Source of the DNA: Lachnospiraceae bacterium | GTDB taxonomy: Bacteria > Bacillota > Clostridia > Lachnospirales > Lachnospiraceae | DNA: 64,000 bases | Assembly: GCA_017635395.1 (NCBI GenBank) | Contig: JAGBLN010000042.1 | Span: 19,360 to 83,359, forward strand | Reading direction: 5' to 3' | In this document: positions 1 through 31,091 of the stretch, piece by piece | Layout of the letters: each line of letters opens with the position of its first letter | How positions within the stretch are numbered: the stretch's first letter is position 1 | The notes under the pieces: generated by a model | What the model was told of the DNA's origin: nothing | Databases searched by the model: none | Seen by the model: only the letters and a program-made list of their open reading frames with translations | Translations under genes and position numbers: made by a program

Positions 1-3000
1 CAGTATAATATATTTCCTCATCCCCGCTGTACTCAAGGCCATGTTCATAGTTTATGCCGTGAATCCGCTCGTACCAAGGCGTGTCAGCCGTGTTCTCACT
101 TATCGGGCTTTTCTCTATTGCGCCATCTTCAGCACTGGCTTCATCCGTCACGGCATCAGTTTCATGCTCTGCCGTCTCTGTCTCATTCAGTTCATTTTCA
201 TGTTTTTCAGCAGTATCCTTACGTGATATTTCCGGCTCATATTCGTCTGTTGTGACAGGCGATACCGTCTCCTGTTCTTTCGTATCCGAATCATCGTCCA
301 TTTCTGCACTCTCTGTTATGAACATATTGCCTATATCATTGCCGAATCTTTCTGCTGATATATAATTAAATGCCAGTGCTCCTTCTCCGCTCTTTATTAT
401 CATGGTAGCTGAAGCTTTCTGGAATATTATATTCTTGAAATTGCAATGCCTGCATATCTGCGCCTTCATCTTCTCTACCTCATCTGCAGAGAGACCTGAA
501 TAGGCAACTATCAGTACATCCGTATTAGGATGCGCAAACCTGGGAAACGCATAGGAGATATACTTTTTATAACATGCCTCCTGTTCTCCCATGGTAATTC
601 GTCCCATAACAAAGTGTCCGTTCCGGATCCTTATCACAGTTCTGAGGTTCAAAATCCTGATTACATTATAAATGCTCTTGTCAAAAAAGCTTTTTCCGCG
701 CTTAAAGTATGCACCGTCAGTTATCAGGCTGTAATACATCTTGTCCCTGACTGACTCCAGCTCATCTATTATCTTCTCAGGGCTCTTTCCCTGAGCACTC
801 ATGCGCTGCGCCATCAGGACTATCATTCCTAAGCATCCGGAGATATTTTTAGAATCAAAAACCCTTACATTGCCATAGGCCTTTGCCGCTTCCATAGCCC
901 TGGCATATTCATCACTTAACTCTGATGAAATAGTAATATAGATTAGATTGTGCGCCTTCTTAAGCTCCTGGCCGAAAAACTTTTCAAATTCCTCGACAGT
1001 TGGCGGTTCTGAATCAAATCTTACTCCTGACTGCATATAGCGGACCATTTCATCCACTCCCGCCTCCGGTCCGTCATAGAAAGTCCCACCTTCAGAATGA
1101 ATAGTGTACGGAATGGTATCTATCTGCTGTGCGGAAAGCACTGCTGCCGGCAGGTCGCATGTTGTATTAGTCGATATAAGCAAAGGGATCTTGCGGCTGT
1201 ACGTTCCGGTAGCATTGAGCTGCATCTTGACAAAATCCTTGTTTCCGGTTCTGATAACTTTGGAGGCCGGAAGATGAGTCATCACCACTTCCTCCAGCTG
1301 CCTTCCGGTAACAGGCTTTATCAGATATCCGTCAAAGCCGCTCCTGCTATACAGTTCACGGTTCTCGCTTCCTGCATTTGCCGTAAGTACGATTATGGGA
1401 ACATGGTTATTCAGGCCGTCATACTGCTTCCTTATATGCTGCGTGCATTCGATACCGTCCATGCCGGGCATAAGATGATCCATCAGTATCATGTCATAGC
1501 GCACTGCCTGTGTCATGGTAAGTGCCTGTTCGCCGCTTGTTGCAGTATCCACCTGTATCTCCGTGGAAACTATGAGCTTCTTTTCAACTTCCAGGTTCAT
1601 GGTATTGTCATCCACGATCAGAAGCTTGGCCTCAGGTGCTCTGAAATCAGGCTTGTATTTTCCATTGGCAGCTCCACCGCTTATACTGCTTATATTGACA
1701 TCACCTATAACCTCTTTCCTTGCTATTATCTGCCACAGGGTCACCGTAAATGTTGATCCCTGAGTATAAACACTGTTTACAGTGATCTTTCCGTCCATAA
1801 GTTCCACTAACTGCTTTACTATAGACAGACCCAAACCGGTGCCTTCGATATTTATGTTCTTTTCCTCATCCACACGTTGAAATGCATCAAATAGATAAGG
1901 CAGTACATCCTGCTTGATACCCATACCGGTATCAATGACCGAAAACATCAAGAGTATCTGGTCATCCTTAACATCTTCCTTTTCTATACGAAGAGTGACA
2001 CTGCCCTCGCTGGTATATTTCACCGCATTGTTAAGGAGGTTTACGAGTATCTGCTTTATCCTCACCTCATCACCGAAAAGCTCCGTGGGGATGGACGGAT
2101 CCACCTCCAGCTTTACCTCCAGCCCCTTCTGCTCAGCCCTGAGCCAGATCATATTGACGATTTCCGAAAGAAGCGCAGAAACACTGTAGTTTACAGGCAC
2201 TATATCCATCTTGCCAGCTTCGATCTTTGAGAAATCAAGAATATCGTTTATGAGTGCCAAAAGCATCCGGCCTGCACCCTGGATATTCCCGGCATCACGC
2301 TTTATCTCGTCCGTAGCTTCTTCCTGACGGAGTATGATTTCATTAAGTCCTAAAATAGAATTGATAGGAGTCCTTATCTCATGGCTCATATTTGAGAAGA
2401 AACGGTTCTGGGAGCGGTTTAATTCCTCAACCTTCCTGGTTTCTTCCCTTGCCCTTTTATTTTCCTGTATGTACAGAAGATTCTGAAACCAGGTCATGAC
2501 AAAGCATACAAGTCCAACCTCGATTACGCCTAACAGCAGGTCCATATAGAAAATTTCCCTGGAATGGGGGTAGATCAGTTCCGGAAATGTATAGCCAATA
2601 TAAAACAGTATAATGATGATCACAGTAAGCACCGCAATAAATACCAGACGCCACATACCGGTAACCACAAGACCTATATAAAGATAACTGAAGATCAGCC
2701 AGGGAATATCTCCACCCTCAAGGCCACCGCCGAAAATAAATATTACCGGCAAAATAACAAAGATCAGTCCGGCGGAGATAAGGCGCGACATAAGCGGCAC
2801 CTTTTTTGTCTTTATGGCAATGACCGTTGCCACAGGAACCATAACGGTAGTAACCGTCAGAAGTATTATCTCAATAATGTTCTCACCGTATATCAAGTCA
2901 CCTATAAGAGCAACTACGGCAACAACAACAGCCACTAAGGTCAACAGTATAAAGACCTTTTCGCTGAATTCCCTGGAGGGGTCATTAAGCAGTTTTTTCA

Positions 3001-3019
3001 GGCGTTCACTCAGTCTCAT
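1..3019 (-). CDS. Hybrid histidine kinase fused to receiver, DegV and Hpt domains (3' end outside window)
   Basis: At least 1006 residues, reading off the left edge. About 160 N-terminal residues form hydrophobic membrane segments. They are followed by a HisKA domain with the H-box FFSNMSHEIRTP (His near residue 212) and a HATPase with GTGLGLSIV. A receiver domain spans about 458-575 (phospho-Asp in MILMDHLMP, Lys in YLIKPV). Residues about 595-890 match the DegV/EDD lipid-binding fold: TNTTCDLP, YDGPEAG, EPPTVEEF, ITISSELSDEY, VFDSKNISGCLG and a closing GEGALAF. An acidic linker leads to GINYEHGLEYSGDEEIYY, which looks like the start of a histidine phosphotransfer domain. Its ATG overlaps the stop of the upstream kinase gene (ATGA), so the two are probably translationally coupled. 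The domains suggest a phosphorelay that senses or responds to fatty acid; that role is inferred. DegV and receiver calls are firm, Hpt is likely. Confidence 0.85.
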   Translation of the reverse strand, partial: MRLSERLKKLLNDPSREFSEKVFILLTLVAVVVAVVALIGDLIYGENIIEIILLTVTTVMVPVATVIAIKTKKVPLMSRLISAGLIFVILPVIFIFGGGLEGGDIPWLIFSYLYIGLVVTGMWRLVFIAVLTVIIIILFYIGYTFPELIYPHSREIFYMDLLLGVIEVGLVCFVMTWFQNLLYIQENKRAREETRKVEELNRSQNRFFSNMSHEIRTPINSILGLNEIILRQEEATDEIKRDAGNIQGAGRMLLALINDILDFSKIEAGKMDIVPVNYSVSALLSEIVNMIWLRAEQKGLEVKLEVDPSIPTELFGDEVRIKQILVNLLNNAVKYTSEGSVTLRIEKEDVKDDQILLMFSVIDTGMGIKQDVLPYLFDAFQRVDEEKNINIEGTGLGLSIVKQLVELMDGKITVNSVYTQGSTFTVTLWQIIARKEVIGDVNISSISGGAANGKYKPDFRAPEAKLLIVDDNTMNLEVEKKLIVSTEIQVDTATSGEQALTMTQAVRYDMILMDHLMPGMDGIECTQHIRKQYDGLNNHVPIIVLTANAGSENRELYSRSGFDGYLIKPVTGRQLEEVVMTHLPASKVIRTGNKDFVKMQLNATGTYSRKIPLLISTNTTCDLPAAVLSAQQIDTIPYTIHSEGGTFYDGPEAGVDEMVRYMQSGVRFDSEPPTVEEFEKFFGQELKKAHNLIYITISSELSDEYARAMEAAKAYGNVRVFDSKNISGCLGMIVLMAQRMSAQGKSPEKIIDELESVRDKMYYSLITDGAYFKRGKSFFDKSIYNVIRILNLRTVIRIRNGHFVMGRITMGEQEACYKKYISYAFPRFAHPNTDVLIVAYSGLSADEVEKMKAQICRHCNFKNIIFQKASATMIIKSGEGALAFNYISAERFGNDIGNMFITESAEMDDDSDTKEQETVSPVTTDEYEPEISRKDTAEKHENELNETETAEHETDAVTDEASAEDGAIEKSPISENTADTPWYERIHGINYEHGLEYSGDEEIYYT

Positions 3020-5079
3020 ACGCCAGCCCCCTTCCTGCCGTTCCTACTGGGAAGAACCTTGCTGACCGTCCTTTCGAACTCGTTGATATGTATGGGCTTA
3101 CTGATAAACTCATCAAAGCCTTCACGCAAAAACATCTCCCTGGCACCGCTTATTGCATTGGCGGTAAGAGCTATTATCCTAAGCACCCTTCCCTGATCTG
3201 AAGCCACTTCCTTTAAGTGCTTCATTGCCTCCACACCATCCATTTCCGGCATCATATGATCCATGAAGACTATGTCATATTCATTCTTTCTGTATTTCTC
3301 TATGGCTTCCTTGCCGCTGGCTGCAGTATCTATGTACATCCTATATTCCTTGAAAATACCGGTGGCCACCACAAGGTTCATGGGTTCGTCATCCACTACC
3401 AATGCCCTTATACCCTCGAGGACAGGGCGTCTTTCATCTTCGAGTCCCGGCATAAGTGATCCGCCAATGTCACCGTTCAGGACCTTGACTACGGGACATC
3501 CGTACAAAGGTTTCGGCATAACTATGACCCCGCTTCCGGCATTAACCTTAAAACCATCTTTTGCTGACACTGCCACAGTAAATCCTTTTACTACAAGGTC
3601 ATCAAAATAATCCGGGGCAGCCAAATATTCTTCCTGTCCCATAAATATATGGGTAATGTCACTGCGCTGGGTAAGCCTGTCAAGTTCAGCACGATCAGGC
3701 GCAGAATAAAGATTCATTCTGAGCCCCGAAGCCATGGAAGCTGCCATCATCCTATAGAAATCCCTTACCTTAGGCGTATCATACTTTTCAGGCATGACAT
3801 GGAAGGCTATGCTGGTATATTCCTCCCTGTCTACGCTTAGGCATGGCGACGGATCTATTACAGACTGTGCAATACTTACACGGACAGTAGTTCCCTCCCC
3901 CTTCCTGCTCTCGATATTTACGAAACCGTTCATCTTACGTACAAAACCGTATACAATGGAAAGACCTAAGCCTATTCCGCCGGTATTCCGGTTTCGTTTG
4001 GTATTTGCCTGATATATGCCCTGTGAAATCTTCTCAATATCAGACCGCCCCATGCCCTTTCCGGTATCCGTCACTTCAATGACGAGATTGACGCCATAGG
4101 ATCTTTTTATCGATGAAACTTTAAGATATACGCCGCCATGGTCGGTAAACTTAATCGCATTATCAAGAAGATGCAGTATCACGCGGCTTATCTTTCCTGC
4201 ATCGCCTCGCATCATGGCAGGCACGCTAGGATCTAAGTCCACGATAAGATCAATATTTTTATCCGGCTTAACCACCTGATAATTAGATATGATATCGTTC
4301 AAAAGCGATGTGATCATATACTTTTCTTCTTCCAGTATCACATCGCCCCGCTGTATCTCACTGTAGTCCTGAATATCCTCTATCTGGCCAGAGAGTCTGA
4401 GTCCCGCATCCCTTATTGAAACCACATCGTCCCTGTCTTCTTTCTTGAGGATCAGGCTGGACATTCCGTTTATAACATTGACAGGTGTACGCAGCTCATG
4501 GGAAATGTTGACAAGGAAATCCTCTGTCTCTTCCTTTGAAGCCTGCTGTTCCTTATACATTACCTCCAGCTCGTCCCTGTCCTTGCGGTTGTTCTTAAGA
4601 GCATCATTTAATCCCTTGTATACACCGATAGCAACCACACAATGGAATATTATCCTGAAGACGGTAAGCGAGTCTGCCTCACTCCCGTCGATCATAAACA
4701 TCATAACAGTCTGTATGATCATCAATACAAAGAATTCACCAAGAAGCAAGGCCAGAAACTCCCTGCGCCTTACCATTGAAAAAGTAGCCATAAGCAATGT
4801 GAATACGGCAATGATGTCAAAAAAGCTGGTACTGTGAACACCATGATAAAAGGCAACCAGCATGGAATAAATCAGAAAATAATTCTCTCTGGATGTCCAT
4901 GTGCCGATCTGTGCCACATGCAGCACCCATAAGGCTATGAGTCCTCCAAGGATCAGCGGCGGCACCCAGAATTCCCATCCCAATGATATGTTTACCAAAG
5001 CAGTCAGTACGCCTGCCACGGTTAAGATTATCGCAACGGAATTATGTATTCTTGCATTTTGTAATGATCTGTCGTTCAA
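3016..5079 (-). CDS. Hybrid sensor histidine kinase with C-terminal receiver
   Basis: 687 residues. Six to eight hydrophobic segments fill about residues 15-165 with no large extracellular sensor. A HisKA domain (FLVNISHELRTPVN, near residue 190) and a HATPase (N-box HLLDNAIKF, GGIGLGLSIV) follow. Residues about 430-560 have no clear motif and may be a degenerate receiver. The C-terminal receiver (about 568-680) has LVVDDEPMN, phospho-Asp in IVFMDHMMPEMDG, and the Lys in ISKPI. The start is taken as TTG because AGGAAGG lies just upstream and the next in-frame Met falls inside the membrane domain. The gene sits 56 bp after the GGDEF/EAL gene and overlaps the next kinase by 4 bp, so all three probably form one signalling operon. 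The input signal is unknown. Confidence 0.88.
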   Translation of the reverse strand: MNDRSLQNARIHNSVAIILTVAGVLTALVNISLGWEFWVPPLILGGLIALWVLHVAQIGTWTSRENYFLIYSMLVAFYHGVHSTSFFDIIAVFTLLMATFSMVRRREFLALLLGEFFVLMIIQTVMMFMIDGSEADSLTVFRIIFHCVVAIGVYKGLNDALKNNRKDRDELEVMYKEQQASKEETEDFLVNISHELRTPVNVINGMSSLILKKEDRDDVVSIRDAGLRLSGQIEDIQDYSEIQRGDVILEEEKYMITSLLNDIISNYQVVKPDKNIDLIVDLDPSVPAMMRGDAGKISRVILHLLDNAIKFTDHGGVYLKVSSIKRSYGVNLVIEVTDTGKGMGRSDIEKISQGIYQANTKRNRNTGGIGLGLSIVYGFVRKMNGFVNIESRKGEGTTVRVSIAQSVIDPSPCLSVDREEYTSIAFHVMPEKYDTPKVRDFYRMMAASMASGLRMNLYSAPDRAELDRLTQRSDITHIFMGQEEYLAAPDYFDDLVVKGFTVAVSAKDGFKVNAGSGVIVMPKPLYGCPVVKVLNGDIGGSLMPGLEDERRPVLEGIRALVVDDEPMNLVVATGIFKEYRMYIDTAASGKEAIEKYRKNEYDIVFMDHMMPEMDGVEAMKHLKEVASDQGRVLRIIALTANAISGAREMFLREGFDEFISKPIHINEFERTVSKVLPSRNGRKGAGV

Positions 5080-8237: not shown

Positions 8238-10046
8238 TCACAGCTCATCCTGAATAGGCCATATATATGCCGGCCTGTCATCCATAAAATCCTCAAATGC
8301 ATCTATCTCATCCAATGCCCCTTCTGTACTTCCGAGGTCCGGATAACGGGCAAAAAACTGGTCATAAAGCGGCTCGTATTCATCAGCGTACCGGTCGATA
8401 TAATCGTCCACATATTCCTCGGTAAATACATCCAGCGAGTAATCCCACAGGCACTGCTTATAGTCAGCCTTGAATTCTTCATTGGTCATAAGCAGTGCAA
8501 AAATCCTCACTGCCGGATTATCTGTGTCAGTATTGAGAAGCTCCTTTTTTTCAATCATATTTTCGCCGGGATTAAGGGCACAGCGGTCCAGATCCTGCAG
8601 TACGAAACGCCAGCGGCCGTCACCGTAACCATCATCCGTAACGGTCTTGCTGCGCCACAGGGACCAGTTAGTTGCCGGCCAGTCCTGGTTATCCAGCCAG
8701 ACCTCTAGAGCAAAATACTGCATTACATTCTCCGGGTCCACTACCTCGCAGAACGTCTCATAATCACCCTTGTCACTAAGGTCATCAAACCCGTCCATGA
8801 AAGCATTCAGCTCATCGATGTAATACATTTCATCATAGCCTTCCGGCACCTCTCCTTCGTCCAGCCTGCAGTCTCCGGTTCCGTAGGATTTATACAGTAC
8901 TGCGTCATCCTTTGCGAGCCCGCACACATCCTCGAAGTACTTTTCAGTATAGTCTTCCGTCAGGATATACAGCCCCCAGTATTCTCCGTTCAGATATACG
9001 ATGCAGGGCCTGGTCTGCTGGGTCGGAAGTCCGCTGGCCTCTGCCGACATGTCCTGCAGCATAGCGTCACCGAATTTTGCCTGCTCCGTAAATCCTTCCG
9101 AGCACCCGCTTCTTAACACCAAGTGCTTGAAGGAATCAGCCTTATATTCCTCACCAAAGAAGGGATAATTAAATTTCTTTGTTCCATATTCTTCCCTTGC
9201 ATAGAGCCTGAAACTCTTCTGCAGCATTGCCCGGGAATAGTTGCCCTGTATCCTTATGCCGCAGTCCTGGGAAAGAAGTTCCTTCACATAACCGTTGGCC
9301 GACACCGAAAGCGCATCCATGCGTACTGTACGTTCCCATTCGCGTCCTTTTCCTCTGTAGTTTGCATCAGCCCAGGGAAGGCTTATGCTGTCATCGTCTT
9401 CCAGCAGTTCCTGTGCCAGCTTATCGTCAAAAGCCTTTCCGGCCACATATATTCCGGTTTCGTAATCAAAGAAATCATTATAGTCTGCCTGAATGCTTAT
9501 GACTATCATGTCCCTGTCAGACGCTAAGCAGCTGTCCGTAAGCCCCTCAATATGCATTGTCATATTTCCGGCAAAATACACAGCGCTGACCTCGTCAGAC
9601 CATGTACCGCCGATCTTCCTGAAGGCTGCCCTTACGACAGTGCATTTGTCCACGTCACTATCCTTCGGAACAGTCACATCACCTGTCACCTTATCGTCCC
9701 CTTCCTTTACCTTGCCCAGACAGGGAGAAATAAGCAGCGGGTCGATTGCAGAGAGAACATTAGGATCCTTGCTCCTGTCCTTTATTTCTATAGGTTCTTT
9801 TTTCTTATACTTTACTGCCGTTTCAGATGTTCTGGGATCACTGCCGTCTGTGGTATACCAGATGCTTCCCCAGAAAGACTCGTCCGTAAGGGCAATAGTA
9901 GTCCCCTCAGCATAAGCACCGGAAGACGCAGAAAACACAGGCGCCGGCGGCAGCTCGCCTTCGTCACCGCAGGCAGTGAAAGCCACAGGAATAATAAGGG
10001 CCATACACATAACAGCTATATACATTATCTTCTTTTTAAATTTCAT
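8238..10046 (-). CDS. CotH-family kinase lipoprotein (copy 1)
   Basis: 602 residues. A signal peptide ends in the lipobox AFTAC, so the protein is probably lipid-anchored outside the cell. Residues about 35-75 resemble the chitobiase C-terminal-type domain (IWYTTDGSDP). From about residue 230 the CotH kinase-like fold follows: RIQGNYSRAMLQKSFRLYA, LVLRSG, IVYLNGEYWGLYILTEDY, VLYKSYGTG and VLQDLDRCALNPGEN. CotH proteins are atypical secreted kinases; Bacillus CotH phosphorylates spore-coat proteins. No spore genes lie nearby, so a cell-surface substrate is more likely here. SD GAGGAG. It follows the YidC fusion by 20 bp and is last in that operon. Copy 2 (14120-16057) is clearly paralogous along its whole length. 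Confidence 0.88.
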   Translation of the reverse strand: MKFKKKIMYIAVMCMALIIPVAFTACGDEGELPPAPVFSASSGAYAEGTTIALTDESFWGSIWYTTDGSDPRTSETAVKYKKKEPIEIKDRSKDPNVLSAIDPLLISPCLGKVKEGDDKVTGDVTVPKDSDVDKCTVVRAAFRKIGGTWSDEVSAVYFAGNMTMHIEGLTDSCLASDRDMIVISIQADYNDFFDYETGIYVAGKAFDDKLAQELLEDDDSISLPWADANYRGKGREWERTVRMDALSVSANGYVKELLSQDCGIRIQGNYSRAMLQKSFRLYAREEYGTKKFNYPFFGEEYKADSFKHLVLRSGCSEGFTEQAKFGDAMLQDMSAEASGLPTQQTRPCIVYLNGEYWGLYILTEDYTEKYFEDVCGLAKDDAVLYKSYGTGDCRLDEGEVPEGYDEMYYIDELNAFMDGFDDLSDKGDYETFCEVVDPENVMQYFALEVWLDNQDWPATNWSLWRSKTVTDDGYGDGRWRFVLQDLDRCALNPGENMIEKKELLNTDTDNPAVRIFALLMTNEEFKADYKQCLWDYSLDVFTEEYVDDYIDRYADEYEPLYDQFFARYPDLGSTEGALDEIDAFEDFMDDRPAYIWPIQDEL

Positions 10047-10066: not shown

Positions 10067-13000
10067 CTAATCCCAGTCCTCAGTGGCCTGGATCCTCGTA
10101 AGTTCATTGTTTACCACCATCTCCCTCAGTGTATCACGGTTTCCGTCATAGGTGTATACATCGAAACCTGCATGGGGATATGCCGAGCTCCTCACTCTGC
10201 TTTCACCGGGGACATGATCGAAAATGGATGTACCGAAAGAACTGTAGTCCTCGCCAATCACGCTCAGTACGGTAGGAATAAAGTCCTCACTGCTTATGGG
10301 CGCAGCATTAACTGTCATGCTGTCCTGGGTCTGGCCGGCCGGCTTGATCAGGTAGATAGGCTGCAGGTCAAGGGAGTCGATGTACTGGCCATGGTCGGCT
10401 GTTATTATTATGGTTGCATCATCATATACGCCAAGTTCTTTTAGCTGTTCAAAATACTCTGCCAGTATTATATTCAGTCCCTGCTGAACCTGTTCTATGC
10501 TTACGCTGTCGTCTTCCACATGGTTTACATGCTCGTCTATTGTAAGGGGATTATGAATGCCGTTTAAGTGTGTAATGATCAGTGCATTCTGCATGCCTTC
10601 ATCGATATGCAGGCCATTCTCCATAAGGATATCATAATAGTCGCCATTATCCGATGTACATGTATCCGTTCCCTCAAAGGTCACCAGGCCGTCAAAGTAA
10701 AAACTCTGTACTTCAAGCTTAGGCTTGGCAACATAAGGAGCATATTTTAACAGGCTGGTCTTTGTCATAAGTTTGAACATCCTGTCGTAATGGATAACAT
10801 ATGCAACATCATCAAGCTCTGTTATATTATCCACGCTTCCAAGTAGTACGGAAGGATCCCTGTACACCGCGCGCCCCGAGCCCGTATAGAGATTGTAGGT
10901 GTAGCCGTGCTTATGCAAAAGCTCGTAAAATTCACCTGACCTTCCGTTTTCCCAGGCCTGCTCCTTGTAGTCATTGGCAGTCAGGCTGCAGTCCGGATCC
11001 ACCAGAGTAAGCATATAAGGTATGGACGGGAAAGTGTAATTGTACTTGCTGTTGGCATTATTATAATATGTGAAGTCCTTAAATATCTGCTCCGTTTCAG
11101 GATGGGCCTCCACCAGATTGTCAAAAGCTCCGTTACTGTATCTGTCAATGATCAGGAGTATGACATTGTCTCCATGCGCAAGCGCAAACTCGTCTTCGCC
11201 GGAAAGTGCATACATTTTGTCACGGGTAACAGTATACGGATTTGTAAACAGGAGGCTGCAGACTGCCACCAGCTGAACCGCTATAAGGAACAGGCTGACG
11301 CCTCCGAACAGCTTATCCCTTTTTTTTCTGAGGAAAAATGACAGCACGCATATTCCGGCTATCACCGCTATCCATACAATGGTATTGACGATGGTATACC
11401 CCCGAAACAGGCTCCAGTCCATCTTGCTTCCGTCAGTCTTTATAAGCTGCTTATTCAAAAACATATTCTGTGCATAGCACATTATGCTTACCGCAAAAAT
11501 AAGCGTATTTAAGACAGTGCGGATCTTTTCAGGGAACAGTGCAATGACCGCTGCGCCTGCTGCCACACCCAATAGCGATACTGCCAAAAACATCCAGAAG
11601 AAATCCTTAGTTCCGAAAAACAGCTCGCTCACATTGCCGGCATATATTTCAAGCGGTCCCAGTATGCCTATCATCATTGCCGGAAACAGCAGCAGGATAG
11701 CAGGAAGGGCCAGCCGCCCCGGATATCCCTTTATAAAGCCCTCTTTTGACCGTTCTTCGGATATGCTTCCTGATGATCCGTTATCTTCATTTACTCCGCT
11801 GTCTATGACTACGGACTCGTTCTCGTAACGCTTCTCTGTTTCCAGGAGACTGCGAAGTATATATCTCGTTCCTACTTCCGCACTTTTCCCCACATTATAG
11901 AGATACTTATCCCTTACATTACGCAGGGATTCCTTAGAATAAACTTCCTCAGTCAGAAGCCTGTTTACCCTGTCAGCTATTTCGTCCAGCTTATCAGGAG
12001 CCACGGAAATACCCACCTGGTCCCTTGCCTCTATATCAAAGGGAATCACGTCGATCTCCTTGTAATCGGGATTCATGATCTTCATGGGAGTATTTATGAA
12101 AAGCACAGGCTTTAAGGTGGTAAATGCATATTCGTAAGCTATGCCCGACCAGTCCGTTATCAGCACATCCGCATAAAACACAGTCTTATTTGATGAGAAA
12201 TCCAGCTGGAACTCAATACATGGATTCTCTTCATACTTCTTTGAAAGGTAATTAAGTTTATCTTCAAAATGACGTACATACTGGGGATGAGGACGGACGA
12301 TCACATGATAATCCCCGCCACCCAGACGGTCCAGAACTTCCTCTATGCACAGATCCATGATGTTGTCTGTCTGCCAGGAAGGTGCGATAAGTATATCAGG
12401 CTTACGATCCGGGCGTGTCTCATCAATTTTATCTTCACCATGCGACTCTCCGTAAGCAGCTATCATATTATCGATCAGTGCATAACCGTACTTGACCAGC
12501 TTTTTTTTAGGAAGGCCATATGCCTTTTCCATTGCACGCATTTCCATGGCCATGCGCTCATTCGTAACAAAAACCGTATCAAAGGCATCCAGCGCATGCT
12601 TACGCAAAGTCAGATTTGCACTGGCCACAGCGTGATCCATATAGATATACTCTGTATCATCACGTACCATAGAACGCTTTATATGGTATTTCTGCAGATC
12701 GGGAGTGGTCAGCACCACCACATCCGCATCCATTTTCATCATAAGCACGATCAGCTTATTCTCACCGATGTAGTACACCCTGAATCGTTCATCAGCAAGT
12801 TTAAATACATCATCATCAGGATCGCTTGTGATGTAATGTATCACCACATCAGAGCCTTCAAGGATTCCCTCTACGACATCCTTAAAATATTTATAGAATC
12901 CGTTCTTTTCAGAATAAAACACGACCTGCTTTCCCTCATACTCAAGGAAACGCTTATAGTCCGCCTTTTCTTTTTCTATGACTTCCTTTGGCCGCTTATT

Positions 13001-13741
13001 GTCCTTTTCACTGACCATGACCTGCATATCCGCAAGCTCCCTGCGGCTTTCGGACAGCGCCTCATAGTCAATATACTTCTTGGGATCAATAAAGAAATTA
13101 AGCAGATACATCTGCACTATGGACAGGAGGTTGCTGACTACCCAATAGAGGCCCATTCCCGAAGGAACAAAAGCCCCCAGGTAAAGAGACAGCCCCACGC
13201 TTAAGATAAGGGTGATCCACTGGTTTGCCTTGCTCTGCTCTGACTGAAGGACATTGGAACGGTTCTGGGTAAAGCACATAAGCCAGGCTGATGCCGCTGC
13301 GATAACCGGCACACAAAGATATATACCACCGGTCTCATAGGGGATCCTGCCCAGATCCAGGCCGCAGAAAAACATATCAAGAGCCGGATCCTTAAGATAT
13401 CCCGCAGGCTGCCTTATTACATCCGCCACGCCCATCAGGATTATAAGCTGAGCCACCACCGGCACGATATCAAGCATGGGGTGGTAGTTATTCTTTTTAT
13501 AAAGGGCGTACTGCTCCTCGGAGATCATGTCCTTGTTTCCGAAGCACCTTACCTTGATGCGATTAAGCTCCGGATACATCTGCACCATCTTGATGCTGTT
13601 TTTCTGCACCAGAACAGAAATCGGCAAAAGAATTACCTTTGTGACAAGAGTAAAGAGAATAATAGTCGGGCCGTAAAAAGGAAGCATCCGATAGCACAGA
13701 TACATACACCACCCGAAAAATTGTCCTACAGCGCCCATCAT
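10067..13741 (-). CDS. Fusion: YidC-like insertase + TagF-like transferase + membrane sulfatase-fold domain
   Basis: 1224 residues joining three normally separate families. Residues about 1-235 are YidC/Oxa1-like (TLVTKVILLPISVLVQKNS, then PELNRIKVRCFGN and NYHPMLDIVPVVAQL); the groove Arg usual in this motif is Lys. Residues about 265-640 resemble CDP-polyol phosphotransferases of the TagB/TagF group: VIVRPHPQY near 484 and ITDWSGIAYEYAF near 532. About five membrane segments (684-830) lead to an extracellular alkaline-phosphatase/sulfatase-type domain with VILLIIDRYSNG (about 864), candidate nucleophile Thr in NYTFPSIPY, and ITADHGQY (about 1115), as in LTA-synthase-like enzymes. The reading frame is open throughout, so this is not an assembly of fragments. 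Its ATG overlaps the stop of the small membrane gene (ATGA) and a CotH gene follows. A role in making or modifying a phosphopolymer across the membrane is inferred. Confidence 0.85.
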   Translation of the reverse strand: MMGAVGQFFGWCMYLCYRMLPFYGPTIILFTLVTKVILLPISVLVQKNSIKMVQMYPELNRIKVRCFGNKDMISEEQYALYKKNNYHPMLDIVPVVAQLIILMGVADVIRQPAGYLKDPALDMFFCGLDLGRIPYETGGIYLCVPVIAAASAWLMCFTQNRSNVLQSEQSKANQWITLILSVGLSLYLGAFVPSGMGLYWVVSNLLSIVQMYLLNFFIDPKKYIDYEALSESRRELADMQVMVSEKDNKRPKEVIEKEKADYKRFLEYEGKQVVFYSEKNGFYKYFKDVVEGILEGSDVVIHYITSDPDDDVFKLADERFRVYYIGENKLIVLMMKMDADVVVLTTPDLQKYHIKRSMVRDDTEYIYMDHAVASANLTLRKHALDAFDTVFVTNERMAMEMRAMEKAYGLPKKKLVKYGYALIDNMIAAYGESHGEDKIDETRPDRKPDILIAPSWQTDNIMDLCIEEVLDRLGGGDYHVIVRPHPQYVRHFEDKLNYLSKKYEENPCIEFQLDFSSNKTVFYADVLITDWSGIAYEYAFTTLKPVLFINTPMKIMNPDYKEIDVIPFDIEARDQVGISVAPDKLDEIADRVNRLLTEEVYSKESLRNVRDKYLYNVGKSAEVGTRYILRSLLETEKRYENESVVIDSGVNEDNGSSGSISEERSKEGFIKGYPGRLALPAILLLFPAMMIGILGPLEIYAGNVSELFFGTKDFFWMFLAVSLLGVAAGAAVIALFPEKIRTVLNTLIFAVSIMCYAQNMFLNKQLIKTDGSKMDWSLFRGYTIVNTIVWIAVIAGICVLSFFLRKKRDKLFGGVSLFLIAVQLVAVCSLLFTNPYTVTRDKMYALSGEDEFALAHGDNVILLIIDRYSNGAFDNLVEAHPETEQIFKDFTYYNNANSKYNYTFPSIPYMLTLVDPDCSLTANDYKEQAWENGRSGEFYELLHKHGYTYNLYTGSGRAVYRDPSVLLGSVDNITELDDVAYVIHYDRMFKLMTKTSLLKYAPYVAKPKLEVQSFYFDGLVTFEGTDTCTSDNGDYYDILMENGLHIDEGMQNALIITHLNGIHNPLTIDEHVNHVEDDSVSIEQVQQGLNIILAEYFEQLKELGVYDDATIIITADHGQYIDSLDLQPIYLIKPAGQTQDSMTVNAAPISSEDFIPTVLSVIGEDYSSFGTSIFDHVPGESRVRSSAYPHAGFDVYTYDGNRDTLREMVVNNELTRIQATEDWD

Positions 13742-14049
13742 GGATAAAGATCCCCGTCTGACGGTCCGTCCTCAAGCAGCTTTGTCAGGTGTATTTTCCG
13801 GCGGTTTTTCCTGCCCTTCCCTTTGTTGAAGAAACTTCCAATCTTATGGCGGAAAACTGTAAACATGGCTCCGGCAGCGATTGCTACTGCTGCCACGGCC
13901 TGTATCATATATGTTACTGCACTGGGATCAATATATGCATTGGCGTAACATGTGAAAACAAAAAAAAAGCAGACAAAGAAATACGTACTGCCGGCCAGAT
14001 AGAAAATTACATCCTTTATTTTGCCATGCCCTGTCTTTTTATAATCCAT
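13738..14049 (-). CDS. Small two-segment membrane protein with AYIDPSA motif
   Basis: 103 residues. A hydrophobic segment (about 13-36) ends in YANAYIDPSAVTYMIQ, followed by a second segment rich in Ala and Val and a basic tail (RHKIGSFFNKGKGRKNRRK). Variants of the YIDP(G/S) motif are common in small membrane proteins beside sulfatase-fold and glycan genes. Here the gene overlaps the start of the YidC-TagF-sulfatase fusion by ATGA, which fits a partner subunit. SD is weak (AGGAAA about 19 bases upstream), so translation may depend on read-over from the CotH gene 70 bp upstream. Function not known. Confidence 0.75.
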   Translation of the reverse strand: MDYKKTGHGKIKDVIFYLAGSTYFFVCFFFVFTCYANAYIDPSAVTYMIQAVAAVAIAAGAMFTVFRHKIGSFFNKGKGRKNRRKIHLTKLLEDGPSDGDLYP

Positions 14050-14119: not shown

Positions 14120-16057
14120 CTACAGTTCATCCTGCATTGGCCAGATATACACCGGCCTGTCAGACATGAACTGCCTGAGCTTTGCAAAATGTTCCCTTGC
14201 CATATCAACACTTCCCTCCGAAGGATAACGCTGATAGTGCTGCTCCAGCAGGTCATCACACATAAGATGCTCATATTTGGAGAAATATGTATCCACATTT
14301 TCCTCACTGAAAGTATCCGCAGACAGATCGAGCAGCTTTTCCTTGTACCTCTGCTTGAACCCTTCGTTAGTCATCAGATAAGCAAATACCCTGACAGCTA
14401 TGTAGGGAGTATCCTTTGCCAACAGGCCTTCCTCTCGCTGTGTAAATGAATCCTTTATGGTATTCCTGCCTGCCTCTCCGTCAAAGCTGCCACACTGGTC
14501 AAGATCATTTAAAGCCATACGCCATCTGGTATCACCGTAACTGTCATTTTCTTTTTCTATGGTACGCCACATGATCCAGTTACCGTCCGGCCAGTCCACA
14601 TTATTGAGCCATACTTCCGCCGCAAAGTAATCCAGGAATGAATCCGGATCCACCAGCTTGCAGAATTCCTCATAGTCAGAGTCATCCTCAAGACTGTCAA
14701 CAGTCTCAAAGAAATGCATCAGATCCCTGTAGTAATACAGCTGGTCGGTGATATTCTCAGGCAGTCTTCCGCTGTCCAGCGTAGGGTCATCACCGTCTAT
14801 CATCTTGTATACCACCACATTGTCCTTCTTGAGTCCATGCAATTCTTCAAAATACTGGGTATTATAATCAGCAGTAAGCATATATACTCCCCAGTACTCA
14901 CCGTTCAGGTAGATCACGCAGGGACAGGCTTTCTGGAAATCCGTATCGATCTTGCCACTGTCAGAGAGCATTTCCTGGAGCATGGCATCCTCACACTTTG
15001 CCATGTACGCAGGACCATTAAAGCACGAACGGAGTATCATAGTATCAAAGCAGTCAACACTTTCACCTTTGTCATTCTTTAACTCATCACCCCAGTAAGG
15101 GAAATTGAAATCAGCCGTGCCATAGTCCATGCGGGCATACAGACGGAAACTCTTCTGCAGTAAAGACCTGCTGGCATGCCCCTGAATCCTAAGTCCGCAG
15201 TTCTGGTTAGTAACTTCAGTTATTTTTCCGTCTGCAGAACATGAAAGTATATTGAGCGCAGCGCGTTTCTCCCACTCTATGCCGCGCATGTTATAGTTAG
15301 CCGGCGTCCAAGGGTCAACATGCGCAAGCACTTCTTCCTGTGAAAGGCCATTATCCTCAAAAACCTTCACAGCCGAGTCATACTGCACTCCTTTTACATA
15401 TATGCCAGTATGATGGTCAAAAAGGTCATTTTCATCCATCTGAATATTTACGATATAGAAATTCCAGCCGTCAGCAGCGCTCTGTACCGCACCTGCCACA
15501 TGACCGGAAACATCGCCAATGAAATAGCAGGCCTGGTTTTCATTAAACACCTCACCCTTATCCGTAACACAGACCGCCCTTATGGCAAAGCATTTATCAA
15601 CATCGTCATTTCCAGGAAGTTCAGCGGTATTAACAAAACTGCCATCGGCAACAGCCATATGGTCTATGGTGATCAGAGCGGGATCAATTACGGACAGCTT
15701 ATTTTCTGTCCCCCTCATATCCTTTACGGTAAGCGGTGCGTCATAAAGTATCCTGGTAGAACTGACTGCCGGATCACTGCCGTCCGTTGTGTAGTATATG
15801 CTCACCCCGGCCGCATTGCTTATGACATCCGGATTCATGCTCAGCTCAAGCTCGAATTCATTGTCATAAAAGCCTGAAGGTTCAGAAAAGACCACGCTCT
15901 TGTCCGCAAGAAGTTCAGCCTTGGTGCGGCCGTTTATATCCTTTAAGGGGTCAGCAACTCCGCCTTCACAGGCAGTAAGGAAAAAAGCAAGCATGAGAAC
16001 CATGACGCCTATGCCTTTTATGAAATTGTGGGCATTACTTTTTTTAAGCATTAACAT
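14120..16057 (-). CDS. CotH-family kinase lipoprotein (copy 2)
   Basis: 645 residues, same plan as copy 1: signal peptide with lipobox FFLTAC, a domain with IYYTTDGSDP (about 85), then CotH motifs LRIQGHASRSLLQKSFRLYA, MILRSCF, CVIYLNGEYWGVYMLTADY, VVYKMIDGDDP and ALNDLDQCG, ending in DRPVYIWPMQDEL, nearly the same as the copy 1 tail (DRPAYIWPIQDEL). The two copies have diverged enough to suggest an old duplication with separate substrates. It opens the operon that continues with the small membrane protein, the fusion and copy 1. The start may be this ATG or the one two codons later; AAGGAAG fits the second better by spacing. No convincing promoter was seen in the short gap after the guaB terminator. 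Confidence 0.87.
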   Translation of the reverse strand: MLMLKKSNAHNFIKGIGVMVLMLAFFLTACEGGVADPLKDINGRTKAELLADKSVVFSEPSGFYDNEFELELSMNPDVISNAAGVSIYYTTDGSDPAVSSTRILYDAPLTVKDMRGTENKLSVIDPALITIDHMAVADGSFVNTAELPGNDDVDKCFAIRAVCVTDKGEVFNENQACYFIGDVSGHVAGAVQSAADGWNFYIVNIQMDENDLFDHHTGIYVKGVQYDSAVKVFEDNGLSQEEVLAHVDPWTPANYNMRGIEWEKRAALNILSCSADGKITEVTNQNCGLRIQGHASRSLLQKSFRLYARMDYGTADFNFPYWGDELKNDKGESVDCFDTMILRSCFNGPAYMAKCEDAMLQEMLSDSGKIDTDFQKACPCVIYLNGEYWGVYMLTADYNTQYFEELHGLKKDNVVVYKMIDGDDPTLDSGRLPENITDQLYYYRDLMHFFETVDSLEDDSDYEEFCKLVDPDSFLDYFAAEVWLNNVDWPDGNWIMWRTIEKENDSYGDTRWRMALNDLDQCGSFDGEAGRNTIKDSFTQREEGLLAKDTPYIAVRVFAYLMTNEGFKQRYKEKLLDLSADTFSEENVDTYFSKYEHLMCDDLLEQHYQRYPSEGSVDMAREHFAKLRQFMSDRPVYIWPMQDEL

Positions 16058-24908: not shown

Positions 24909-27275
24909 TCACGTACCAAGCCCTTCTTCAAAAGAACTCTTGAACTTATTCATGCTTTTCATTGCAATCTTCATCGCATGTGCTGACTCATCCATATTCT
25001 TTATCTCGGCCTTCAATTTTTTCTTTTCTTCTTTGGGCACAACATTTTCACGCAGCTTAAGTTCTACAGCTTTCTTTTCTAATTTGGCTATGTTTTCCAC
25101 ATACTTCTCGTATACATAATCAGAATATTCTATGTCATGTTCATCATTCAAAAAGATTTCATACATCGATACCATGAGTTTTGCTGACTGAAGTATAGTA
25201 GCCTTCTTTCCCATGACCCCGACAGCACTTACCGTGGCACCTGCACCTGCACCAACACCGATTCCATTCAGGGCTCCGCCACCAACAATAGCCATTGTCC
25301 CACCTGCCATTCCCATACCTCCAACTGCAATCGCCCCGCCGCCAAGATATGCAAGACATGCACTTGTAAGTGCGGCACCGCTAAGTCCTGCAAATTGCGT
25401 TCCAACCAGCGCAACTGCAATTGCCGGTGCAAACATTCCGGCAGTTGCGACTGTCGCAACTGCAATTACAGCCGTAACCGCAAATCCCGTTAATGTTGAT
25501 TTTAATACCTCATTCAGCTCTCTCACTACCCTATTGTATGTTTTCCGCAGCCTTGCAACATAACCGGCACTGCAAAATCTGTATGATAATTCCGTATCCA
25601 GAAAAGTATCACCTGCATCTTTTTTATATCCAACCATAGGATTACTAAGCGGCTGATATTTTTTACTAGGAACATCGTTGCCTTTCTTGTCCTTTTCAAG
25701 ACTAAGAGCATAGTAAGGCTCAAATAACATTGCCTCCAGAAGAACTAACCTGAACCAGGTTCCGTCCGGCTGCTTTGAAGCAATCAGTTTAATCAGTTCA
25801 TCCTGCTCATACCAGTGAAGCTTTACACTATTATCATTGACAAAGCTTGAAAAGCCCATTTCCATATAGCTTTTCCACTCTTTTACCCACTCAAGTTTCA
25901 GTTGCTTTGCCGCTTTGCCACTTCCAAGTGAACCGGTATTCCGTATATCATTCAGAGTCTTCAGAAGTTCTACATTATAAAGAATTTCCGTCTGCTCGAC
26001 TGTGAGGCCGAATTTCTCAACTCTGTCTGTATCCCCCAGCTTGTCGTATATTTTTCTATCAGCGTCAGTATATGTATTCCTTTGTATCTCCTCATACATA
26101 GCCTTTATCTGCTTAACATTACGGAGTTTTAAGTAATTTACGACCTCGCTACCAAGTGCAACAGTAAACCGTCCTACGCCCACATAATTTACCGAAATGA
26201 AATACTTCTCAGTAATAACAGCCTCTGTTAAATCTATGGCCGTAAATACACCAGTGGATACTAACAGCATTCTTGAAACCGTCTGATTATTAAAGGGAAC
26301 TATACTCTTCCAATTAATGCTTCCCATTTCAGCCAGCGACTTAACCCTGTTCTGCCGCATCAGCGCACAGAAACGGCGGACAAAATAAAATGTCCTCACA
26401 ACACATTCATTTGCGATTACGGGAAGTGCCTGTCTTCCAAGCTCTGCCACTGCACCAAGCTCACCACGAAAATCCATTTTAAGCTCTGTACCTTTTATAA
26501 GCTTTCCTGCTTTATCCCGTTTTGCAAACAATGTCCCATTAAATATTTTCGAAATGAATACTGACAGATTTTCATCATTTACGGAAATATCTCTTATAAA
26601 CGGAATTGATGATACTTCTTTAGCCATAGATAATACCGGTCCCGGTATGCCGGTTCCCCCACTTAGTCCGGCTGAGCCGCTTGACCCTGCCACATCACTT
26701 ACTAAATGGAAAAACCATATTACAGTACCTCTAAAAATTTTATCAGGTATATTTTTCCCGATAAAAATTTTACTTTTCTCCGGAACAGGAACAGCGATAA
26801 ACCTTCCTGATGTATCAGTTCCATACGATAAACCGGTGAACTGTGTCAAAAGCGAAAAAATCAATCCTGCAACGGTGGGGTGATGTGCGAAATCCCTCAA
26901 ATGATGCTGAAGTCCGCCTCCGAAATCCGGTGTATTTCCATCAGCCGGAATCGGGAACCTGGATTCAAGAAACTTTACCGCACCACCAATATCATTGCTC
27001 CTGCCGCCTAACAGTTTTGAAATGCTTATCACAAATTTTTCCACTTGGGAACTTGAACATGATCTTCCCCTCGCAAGGTTAAGTTCACCGACCCACAGAA
27101 TGTCCAATATGCCACTGATAATCCCCGCGGCAGTTGCGACAAAATAGTCTATCCTGTCTGCCTGACTCGATAATAACTCTATTTCTTTATCGAGTTCAAA
27201 TACCGTTTTTTCAATTTCAGCTGATGCAGCATGTCTGCCGTCAAGCAGCTCCACAGATATTTCATTTTTTGCCAT
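24909..27275 (-). CDS. Large protein with a glycine-rich hydrophobic C-terminal region (HerA cassette gene 4)
   Basis: 788 residues, family not recognised. No signal peptide. An early weak hydrophobic stretch (YFVATAAGIISGILDILWV, about 45-63) is followed by a long mostly soluble region. Residues about 590-700 are strongly hydrophobic and Gly/Ala-rich (FAVTAVIAVATVATAGMF; AYLGGGAIAVGGMGMAGG; GIGVGAGAGATVSAVGV), a glycine-zipper pattern known from proteins that insert into membranes. The tail is charged and probably coiled (KLEKKAVELKLRENVVPKEE). It is last of four genes in the HerA operon, 79 bp after the preceding gene. A membrane-acting effector is one reading, a structural membrane partner another. 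Confidence 0.65.
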   Translation of the reverse strand: MAKNEISVELLDGRHAASAEIEKTVFELDKEIELLSSQADRIDYFVATAAGIISGILDILWVGELNLARGRSCSSSQVEKFVISISKLLGGRSNDIGGAVKFLESRFPIPADGNTPDFGGGLQHHLRDFAHHPTVAGLIFSLLTQFTGLSYGTDTSGRFIAVPVPEKSKIFIGKNIPDKIFRGTVIWFFHLVSDVAGSSGSAGLSGGTGIPGPVLSMAKEVSSIPFIRDISVNDENLSVFISKIFNGTLFAKRDKAGKLIKGTELKMDFRGELGAVAELGRQALPVIANECVVRTFYFVRRFCALMRQNRVKSLAEMGSINWKSIVPFNNQTVSRMLLVSTGVFTAIDLTEAVITEKYFISVNYVGVGRFTVALGSEVVNYLKLRNVKQIKAMYEEIQRNTYTDADRKIYDKLGDTDRVEKFGLTVEQTEILYNVELLKTLNDIRNTGSLGSGKAAKQLKLEWVKEWKSYMEMGFSSFVNDNSVKLHWYEQDELIKLIASKQPDGTWFRLVLLEAMLFEPYYALSLEKDKKGNDVPSKKYQPLSNPMVGYKKDAGDTFLDTELSYRFCSAGYVARLRKTYNRVVRELNEVLKSTLTGFAVTAVIAVATVATAGMFAPAIAVALVGTQFAGLSGAALTSACLAYLGGGAIAVGGMGMAGGTMAIVGGGALNGIGVGAGAGATVSAVGVMGKKATILQSAKLMVSMYEIFLNDEHDIEYSDYVYEKYVENIAKLEKKAVELKLRENVVPKEEKKKLKAEIKNMDESAHAMKIAMKSMNKFKSSFEEGLGT

Positions 27276-27354: not shown

Positions 27355-28191
27355 TCAATCATCAAAAATAATTTCATCCGGAAGTTCAAGTTCTGCGTTG
27401 AATTCCACTATAGAAGATTTCATCTTTTCTGCTGCCTCGTCTCCTCCAAGTTCAGCCGCCTTGTTAATGGCGTTGCTAGCCATATCCTTCATGCTGTCCT
27501 TAAGCTGTTCAATTTCATCCGAATGTTCTTCAAGTATCACACCGCCGACATCTACTAATGTTCTATAAGCACCAACTGCAATAGTATATCCTACAGTCTC
27601 CCCCACCGCAGGAGCACCTTTTAAAACGCCATCGGTAAGCAGTTCAGCCGCAAGCCCCACTCCAAATCCTTCCAATCTGCCCAAAGTACCTGCTAAGTTT
27701 TCTCCAAGATCATAAGCCATTTCATTAAGACCAATCTCACCTTTGCCATACGCAACAACGAGATCGCAGGAAGAGATGCCAAATTCTACTAGCTTCTCAG
27801 GAATATCACATCCAAGATCTGTAAGAGATCCCAGTAATTTTTCAGCAGATGCTGTTAATATAGCTCCTACCTCATTAGAAATGAAACCTGTCCCGTCCTG
27901 ATTTTTTGCTTTGATATCTCCAATTGCCTGATCGATTGTTTTTTCCCCTTCAAAGCAATCAATTATTCCTTCAACAGTGGATGTTGCAGCAGCTATAGCC
28001 GATGAAACGTCAAAGTTTTCAATATCTGCTTCAGGTGATTTAAGTATCAGTTCTTCTGATTCATCAAAATCAGTATCAAGCTTTTCTTCTTGATCATCAA
28101 AATCAAATTTGATTTCCCCTATTTCATTTGATTCTGCCATCTCATTCAGTTCTTCTGCTGATCCCAGCTCATTATTAAATCCGTTATGCAT
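27355..28191 (-). CDS. Acidic protein with Gly/Ala-rich helical core (HerA cassette gene 3)
   Basis: 278 residues, family not recognised. Start ATG at 28191 is preferred: GGAGG lies eight bases upstream, whereas the GTG at 28200 overlaps that SD. It overlaps the ATPase gene by eight bases (ATGCATAA). The first 75 residues are very acidic (FDFDDQEEKLDTDFDESEE). The core has amphipathic to hydrophobic stretches such as AAELLTDGVLKGAPAVGET and VGYTIAVGAYRTLVDVGGV. The C-terminus returns to charged helix (DSMKDMASNAINKAAELGG). The pattern recalls immunity or chaperone-like partners of membrane-active proteins, which fits its place just before the glycine-zipper gene; this is inference. Confidence 0.65.
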   Translation of the reverse strand: MHNGFNNELGSAEELNEMAESNEIGEIKFDFDDQEEKLDTDFDESEELILKSPEADIENFDVSSAIAAATSTVEGIIDCFEGEKTIDQAIGDIKAKNQDGTGFISNEVGAILTASAEKLLGSLTDLGCDIPEKLVEFGISSCDLVVAYGKGEIGLNEMAYDLGENLAGTLGRLEGFGVGLAAELLTDGVLKGAPAVGETVGYTIAVGAYRTLVDVGGVILEEHSDEIEQLKDSMKDMASNAINKAAELGGDEAAEKMKSSIVEFNAELELPDEIIFDD

Positions 28192-31087: not shown

Positions 31088-31091
31088 ACAA

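Follow-up and report, generated by a model that had tools for sequence, protein, structure and literature searches.

A YidC-like, TagF-type and sulfatase-fold fusion protein of Lachnospiraceae with relatives in 2-aminoethylphosphonate operons

The 64,000-nt stretch of Lachnospiraceae bacterium analysed here (GCA_017635395.1, contig JAGBLN010000042.1; hereafter the window, its genome being G000) encodes, at positions 10067–13741 of the minus strand, a 1224-amino-acid (aa) fusion protein in which a YidC/Oxa1 domain (Y), a TagF-type transferase (T), a five-helix membrane block (M) and a sulfatase fold (S) follow one another. We find, as a newly seen association, that many genes of the Y-T type belong to operons making the cytidine monophosphate (CMP)-activated form of 2-aminoethylphosphonate (AEP). 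The Y-T-M-S protein is thus likely to serve aminoalkyl, most likely AEP, tailoring of the cell surface rather than polyol-phosphate synthesis. We hold with confidence that its head group is an aminoalkyl one rather than a polyol, and consider AEP in particular probable.

The domain identities are virtually certain. Within a single open frame starting at ATG, Pfam places 60KD_IMP at aa 23–215 (98.3 bits, curated cut-off 35), Glyphos_transf at aa 268–621 (51.6 bits, cut-off 22.1) and Sulfatase at aa 859–1163 (30.2 bits, cut-off 25), bearing out a sequence-only reading of the window that had assigned three families to one frame; the NCBIfam model TIGR03592 scores 86.5 bits on the YidC part, barely above its cut-off of 84.3. 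Y (aa 1–240; 13022–13741, minus strand, as for all parts below) holds five strong hydrophobic segments within aa 27–214, with a marginal one at aa 1–19. T (aa 262–640; 11822–12958) contains H485 and D530, and a fast-evolving linker (aa 641–675; 11717–11821) leads to M (aa 676–852; 11186–11716), whose five segments span aa 677–833. S (aa 853–1224 plus stop; 10067–11185) carries D866, T903, H1058, H1063, D1116 and H1117. The same simple hydropathy scan finds no segment in T or S. All the motifs quoted in the earlier reading are present, namely PHPQY at H485, TDWSGIAYEYAF at D530, IIDRYSNG at D866 and TADHGQY at D1116/H1117. If Y is N-out and C-in, which we take to be the topology of a five-segment YidC, then T lies inside, M begins inside and S ends outside. 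Domain matches and segment counts together thus agree with the proposal that a cytoplasmic transfer domain is joined, through a five-segment block, to an extracellular domain for phospho-transfer or hydrolysis.

The fusion is real. A survey of 35 genomes of the genus with domain hidden Markov models (HMMs) built from the window protein recovered the same fusion as seven complete Y-T-M-S proteins in six genomes (G000, G031, G016, G020, G030 and, twice, G013), together with a contig-cut T-M-S piece in G014. The opposite order, M-S-Y-T, is found in four proteins (in G014, G016, G020 and G030), and G013 has two pieces at contig ends that fit it as well. Two further genomes (G003 and G033) have Y-T plus a separate M-S, and outside the full fusions Y-T and M-S are mostly separate genes. 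The sequence-only reading had allowed that close relatives might show the parts as separate genes, with a misassembly here; the parts are indeed often separate, but the seven complete copies in six genomes, and the opposite order in four, rule out misassembly. Across aa 1–1224, the fusion and its ortholog in G031 share 87% identity. Ratios of nonsynonymous to synonymous substitution between the two, which are rough because synonymous changes are near saturation, are 0.038 for Y, 0.058 for T, 0.082 for M and 0.041 for S, and 0.55 for the T–M linker, where identity falls to 29%.

The two fusion orders arose separately, since trees of the T domain and of M-S both keep them apart. In the T-domain tree (107 rows, quick method) the seven Y-T-M-S rows form one clade with support 99 and the M-S-Y-T rows lie elsewhere, and grouping the two orders together is rejected (approximately unbiased test, p-AU 0.0008). 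In the M-S tree, the sets around the window, of up to 14 rows, are free of any M-S-Y-T row. Rows of the alignments (A2–A4) were picked by hand, and a full-length mixed alignment (A2) was dropped because of the low agreement, only 9–15%, between its M-S rows and the first row. Both orders show a segment count of 5+5, which would place T inside and S outside in each.

To describe the gene context, Y-T relatives were taken from a single scan of named genomes; it found 137, and the 80 best loci were kept. Since the window stood first in the query, the proportions of head-group types given here are not general. The neighbourhood set consists of 80 Y-T-type loci, that is, the window and 79 fetched loci (L104, which lacks Y, was left out), viewed within a radius of 9 kb and with neighbour classes set by BLAST score limits of our choosing. 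AEP genes are present at 44 of these 80 loci. Counted gene by gene over the 80, PepM (phosphoenolpyruvate mutase) is found at 41, PhnW (AEP transaminase) at 43, Ppd (phosphonopyruvate decarboxylase) at 37, a PntC-like nucleotidyltransferase at 47, and a separate M-S gene or its pieces at 43. A common order on one strand is [M-S] Y-T PhnW PepM PntC Ppd. PhnW shares the strand of Y-T in all 43 cases and starts no more than 60 nt after it in 34. At one representative locus (L132) the NCBIfam equivalogs score 464 bits for PhnW (cut-off 361), 411 for PepM (320) and 440 for Ppd (312); PntC there has NTP-transferase domains and no equivalog match.

Other loci carry a nucleotidyltransferase–aminotransferase (NTP-AT) fusion (8 of 80), a neighbour of choline-kinase type (7) or a BCCT transporter (4). 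By class, 44 loci are of AEP type, seven of NTP-AT type and six of choline type, one is both, and 22 have none. The CobD-like part of the NTP-AT fusion scores 186 bits, under its cut-off of 290, and the choline-type neighbour has a Choline_kinase domain. The AEP, NTP-AT and choline routes would all yield aminoalkyl head groups activated with CMP or cytidine diphosphate (CDP). The Y-T gene that is sister to the Y-T-M-S clade (support 99; L045, taken to be the same as L105, in G003, strain NC2008) is located in an AEP operon. H485 and D530 of T are invariant in 67 rows, and T alone has no match in the PDB by phmmer up to E 0.1. A cluster from another, distant family (G557, L195) reads PepM(+nucleotidyltransferase)–Ppd–nucleotidyltransferase–PhnW–T–S–S, and its T fits the profile of Y-T-type T with 343 bits. 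T and S are therefore tied to AEP in a second lineage.

A plausible reading, though one that stops short of probable, is that Y-T-M-S is a 'load, flip, transfer' machine in a single piece, which puts AEP on the cell surface. LtaS and EptA/MCR draw the group they transfer from membrane phospholipid, and T would therefore be expected to make a lipid donor. As gene context and family suggest, T would use CMP-AEP to charge a membrane lipid, or a lipid-linked carrier, with AEP in the cytoplasm; Y, with its positive groove residue kept, may give the loaded lipid passage through the membrane; M would anchor S; and S, LtaS/EptA-like in family and active-site residues, would then hand AEP over, outside, from this lipid to an acceptor, either a polymer or a glycolipid of the surface. 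The donor, the lipid, the acceptor and the role of Y are thus predicted elements of this scheme. PMC10491306 reports lipid scrambling, both in vitro and in simulations, by insertases of the Oxa1 family, E. coli YidC among them; from this we infer that Y could let a loaded lipid cross. We regard Y as a lipid translocator only tentatively. The fullest version, in which a YidC fold has turned into a dedicated translocator of lipid-linked phosphonates and Y-T-M-S is a complete machine supplying the missing last tailoring steps, we consider doubtful.

An alternative for Y is that it acts as a dedicated insertase or scaffold, folding M-S or an adjoining 103-aa protein, or keeping T at the membrane near S; we judge this rather unlikely. 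Y does score as YidC/Oxa1, and its fusion partner differs between lineages, being T in some of them and an S-like domain in others. The 103-aa protein, a small membrane protein with a YIDPS motif (13738–14049, minus strand) that overlaps the start of the fusion, has no Pfam or NCBIfam match; relatives of it lie on the same strand directly upstream of Y-T or Y-T-M-S in 23 loci, and within 9 kb in 26 of the 80. Against the insertase or scaffold role stand the existence of T-S without Y, a polar loop invariant in Y-T and absent from general YidC, and the co-occurrence of Y with stand-alone YidC, which was found in six of the nine genus genomes with Y-T and in all five other Lachnospiraceae genomes with Y-T, in one of them in two frames. 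The suggestion that Y is not a general insertase gains from these co-occurrences and loses from three genomes (G000, G020 and G031) in which the genus family search, known to miss some, found no stand-alone YidC, an absence that also favours the insertase or scaffold. That this search misses some follows from three nearly complete genomes (G012, G025 and G026; 97–100%) that give no YidC-family match at E 0.001. The missing matches there, and the missing stand-alone YidC in G020 (99% complete), may reflect either a divergent YidC or a search gap.

The groove and loop of Y bear directly on the same choice. K35 (13637–13639) aligns with the groove Arg of BhYidC2 (3wo7/3wo6), so the Lys noticed in the sequence-only reading is correctly placed; its interpretation as a sign of lost insertase function does not survive comparison, as the 73 Y-T proteins show K (71) or R (2) at this position, whereas Tyr stands there in 10 of 12 hand-picked stand-alone YidC of the genus, the others being one R and one K. 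K is found in all seven Y-T-M-S and all four M-S-Y-T proteins. The two exceptions among the stand-alone YidC-like proteins, with R or K vs Tyr in the other ten, are L088 (G015) and L089 (G008). The loop QNxxNVLQxEQ (aa 159–169; 13235–13267), in the interval between segments 3 and 4, is invariant in Y-T types: Q159, Q166 and Q169 are invariant in 84 Y-T-type rows and are not the common residue in the stand-alone YidC or Y-X-S sets (the latter described below), whereas N163, equally invariant in the 84 rows, is also N in 6 of the 12 stand-alone YidC. With the groove K/R kept and the loop Gln residues invariant, the groove of Y has stayed positive and the domain has acquired a specific polar loop.

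Proteins that we denote Y-X-S (34 in the fetched stretches) combine a YidC match, a membrane block and an S-like domain; the last rests on our own HMM, and in the one protein scanned (L065) YidC is the sole Pfam match at a limit of E 0.001. Their groove residue is N or S in 29 of 34, and a stand-alone T is often near their genes. Several genomes of the genus, G027 and G023 among them, show a big expansion of YidC-matching frames of about 850–1000 aa, some ten in G027. Those fetched (e.g. L073 and L075–L077) also hold an S-like domain by our HMM, and some share an AEP, NTP-AT or choline-type cluster with a T that stands alone. The M-S protein of another genome (G579) starts with a stretch that resembles the small YIDP protein, by eye and without a score.

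The same chemistry could also serve another head group (phosphocholine, phosphoethanolamine or aminopropanol phosphate), which seems to be the case in part of the Y-T relatives but which we consider unlikely for Y-T-M-S. The NTP-AT, choline-kinase and BCCT loci counted above speak for it, as do the AEP operons of G000 and G031, which carry a T of their own from a distant branch; the fusion would therefore be a second transferase in these genomes and could serve a different head group. In G000 this operon, on contig C48, reads PhnW–T–PepM–PntC–Ppd, with three of its genes over NCBIfam cut-offs and PntC recognised by BLAST similarity only. On the other side, the sister Y-T sits in an AEP operon, NTP-AT is found in 4 of the 35 genus genomes and in none of the six with Y-T-M-S, and the LicC–LicA type is found in two of the 35, only one of which has Y-T-M-S (G031, at 29% identity); G000 is 73% complete. 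PepM, by comparison, is present in 20 of the 35 genomes and in all six with Y-T-M-S.

Several observations, of which the resident T of the G000 and G031 operons is one, weigh against assigning the fusion to AEP tailoring with Y as a working part. None of the seven Y-T-M-S genes has AEP genes within 9 kb, and 22 of the 80 loci lack head-group genes in reach, some on short contigs. The distant G557 cluster joins AEP genes to T and S without Y, the genome search giving one YidC, a stand-alone one, and therefore Y can be absent. Among the 20 PepM loci of the genus, the fetched flanks contain T or Y-T at 12 and neither at eight. A contig end lies just upstream in three of these eight (in G008, G020 and G034), while three genomes bearing Y-T-M-S (G013, G016 and G030) truly have no T beside PhnW–PepM, as is the case in two without Y-T (G011 and G015). 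PepM is absent from one of the nine genus genomes with Y-T (G014, 89% complete) and from three of the five other Lachnospiraceae genomes with Y-T (G579, G119 and G084), and the co-occurrence of Y-T and PepM over the 35 genus genomes reaches only p 0.048, two-sided.

The sequence-only reading had favoured a teichoic-acid-like product, in which T would use CDP-glycerol or another CDP-polyol and S would build or extend a polyol-phosphate polymer outside. Membership of T in the Pfam family of CDP-glycerol glycerophosphotransferases and the position of LtaS as the nearest solved structure to S are in line with it, but the genes beside Y-T make aminoalkyl head groups, being of AEP, choline or aminotransferase type, and we now regard this product as quite improbable. 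TagD (TIGR01518) is over its cut-off in 7 of the 35 genus genomes and in none of the six with Y-T-M-S, all six of which have PepM; G000 and G031 are 73% and 85% complete, and CDP-ribitol genes were not searched. The sole TagD match in G000 is the N-terminal domain of its PEP mutase, and a TagD-like match in G031, a 458-aa frame, stays below the cut-off (124 of 165 bits) and is a point in favour of the polyol product.

S itself is most like LtaS. The M-S profile finds LtaS (2w5q) first among PDB chains, with E 2.5e-13, and H1063, D1116 and H1117 fall within the significant aligned stretch (52.7 bits); we take the LtaS counterparts of H1063 and D1116-H1117 to be metal-site residues. T903, the candidate Thr nucleophile, stands opposite an LtaS Thr only in a stretch of 1.2 bits, and the matches to YejM/PbgA (E 3e-5) and MCR-1 (E 0.006) cover its region. 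D866, T903, H1058, H1063, D1116 and H1117 are all invariant in the 50 rows of alignment A4. That S might instead remove groups, hydrolysing phospho- or phosphono-esters outside the cell to edit or recycle a decoration, is very unlikely: searched as a single sequence, S finds a phosphonate monoester hydrolase as its best PDB match (E 0.0057; 3e-9 for the same chain in the profile search), but the LtaS profile match is the stronger, and LtaS and EptA have the same layout, with five helices, the number counted here, ahead of the sulfatase fold.

A Y-T-type T (E ≤ 1e-60) occurs in 5 of 150 genomes sampled evenly from the family and in 3 of 398 sampled evenly from the phylum; G000 is counted in both samples, and the Y-less G557 is one of the phylum hits. 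Record titles of the Y-T loci are mostly Lachnospiraceae, with some Oscillospiraceae and other Clostridia and one Candidatus Saccharibacteria (L166), possibly a binning or labelling error. A plasmid search gave 27 records with partial matches only, none covering 80%, and a viral scan gave a single T-bearing fragment, an IMG/VR contig (L191) in which a T fragment and an M-type start (2851–4071) lie beside small open reading frames that look phage-structural by eye.

In the window, the fusion has a CotH-kinase protein with chitobiase-like domains on either side (8238–10046 and 14120–16057, minus strand). The CotH cluster label recurs beside the Y-T-M-S gene of L098 but is missing at the five remaining Y-T-M-S loci that were fetched. 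Further along on the same strand lie a 788-aa protein with no Pfam match at E 0.01 (24909–27275) and what could be a mobile or defence island (27355–32729), where a HerA/DUF87-type ATPase of 967 aa (28184–31087) is placed between two proteins without Pfam matches.

Each part of the fusion resembles a known system and departs from it. Y matches the YidC/Oxa1 insertases in its Pfam and TIGR03592 scores, five segments and positive groove residue, but it is fused to enzymes, has an extra invariant polar loop and, in 11 of 14 Y-T genomes examined, coexists with a stand-alone YidC. T shares the Glyphos_transf match and the HPQ and TDWS motifs with the TagB/TagF CDP-glycerol glycerophosphotransferases, yet its context is aminoalkyl phosphonate or phosphate, with no TagD over cut-off in the Y-T-M-S genomes. 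M-S follows LtaS and EptA/MCR in its five-segment block and sulfatase fold, with LtaS as top PDB match, and differs from them in the fusion of S to Y and T and in the predicted head group, AEP. GtrA/GtrB/GtrC-type glycosylation uses three components, a lipid being loaded inside, flipped and transferred outside. The same load–flip–transfer logic is proposed for Y-T-M-S, here with a single protein, a phosphono group instead of a sugar and a YidC-like domain instead of GtrA.

The Pnt pathway is given by Rice et al. (2019, PMC6697681) as PepM–Ppd–AEPT–PntC, and Y-T genes are found in operons with all four of these activities. The same text calls the steps after AEP formation 'enigmatic', PntC activation excepted, and states that most bacterial phosphonate capacity serves cell-surface tailoring; another report (PMC12413058) describes AEP on a Bacteroides capsule. 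In the neighbourhoods displayed by Rice et al. the proteins named are LicD-like phosphotransferases or glycosyltransferases, and a word search of their text found none of 'YidC', 'TagF', 'sulfatase' and 'glycerophospho'. Among the matches listed by a literature search that left out most subscription journals, none shows a description of the fusion or of a transferase acting after CMP-AEP. T and M-S, present in the AEP operons of 44 loci, are concrete candidates for the tailoring steps of phosphonate metabolism that follow AEP activation. If Y moves lipids, it would represent a natural use of the in vitro scrambling by YidC and other insertases described in PMC10491306. The presence of a T/M-S candidate in strain NC2008 opens the question to bench work.

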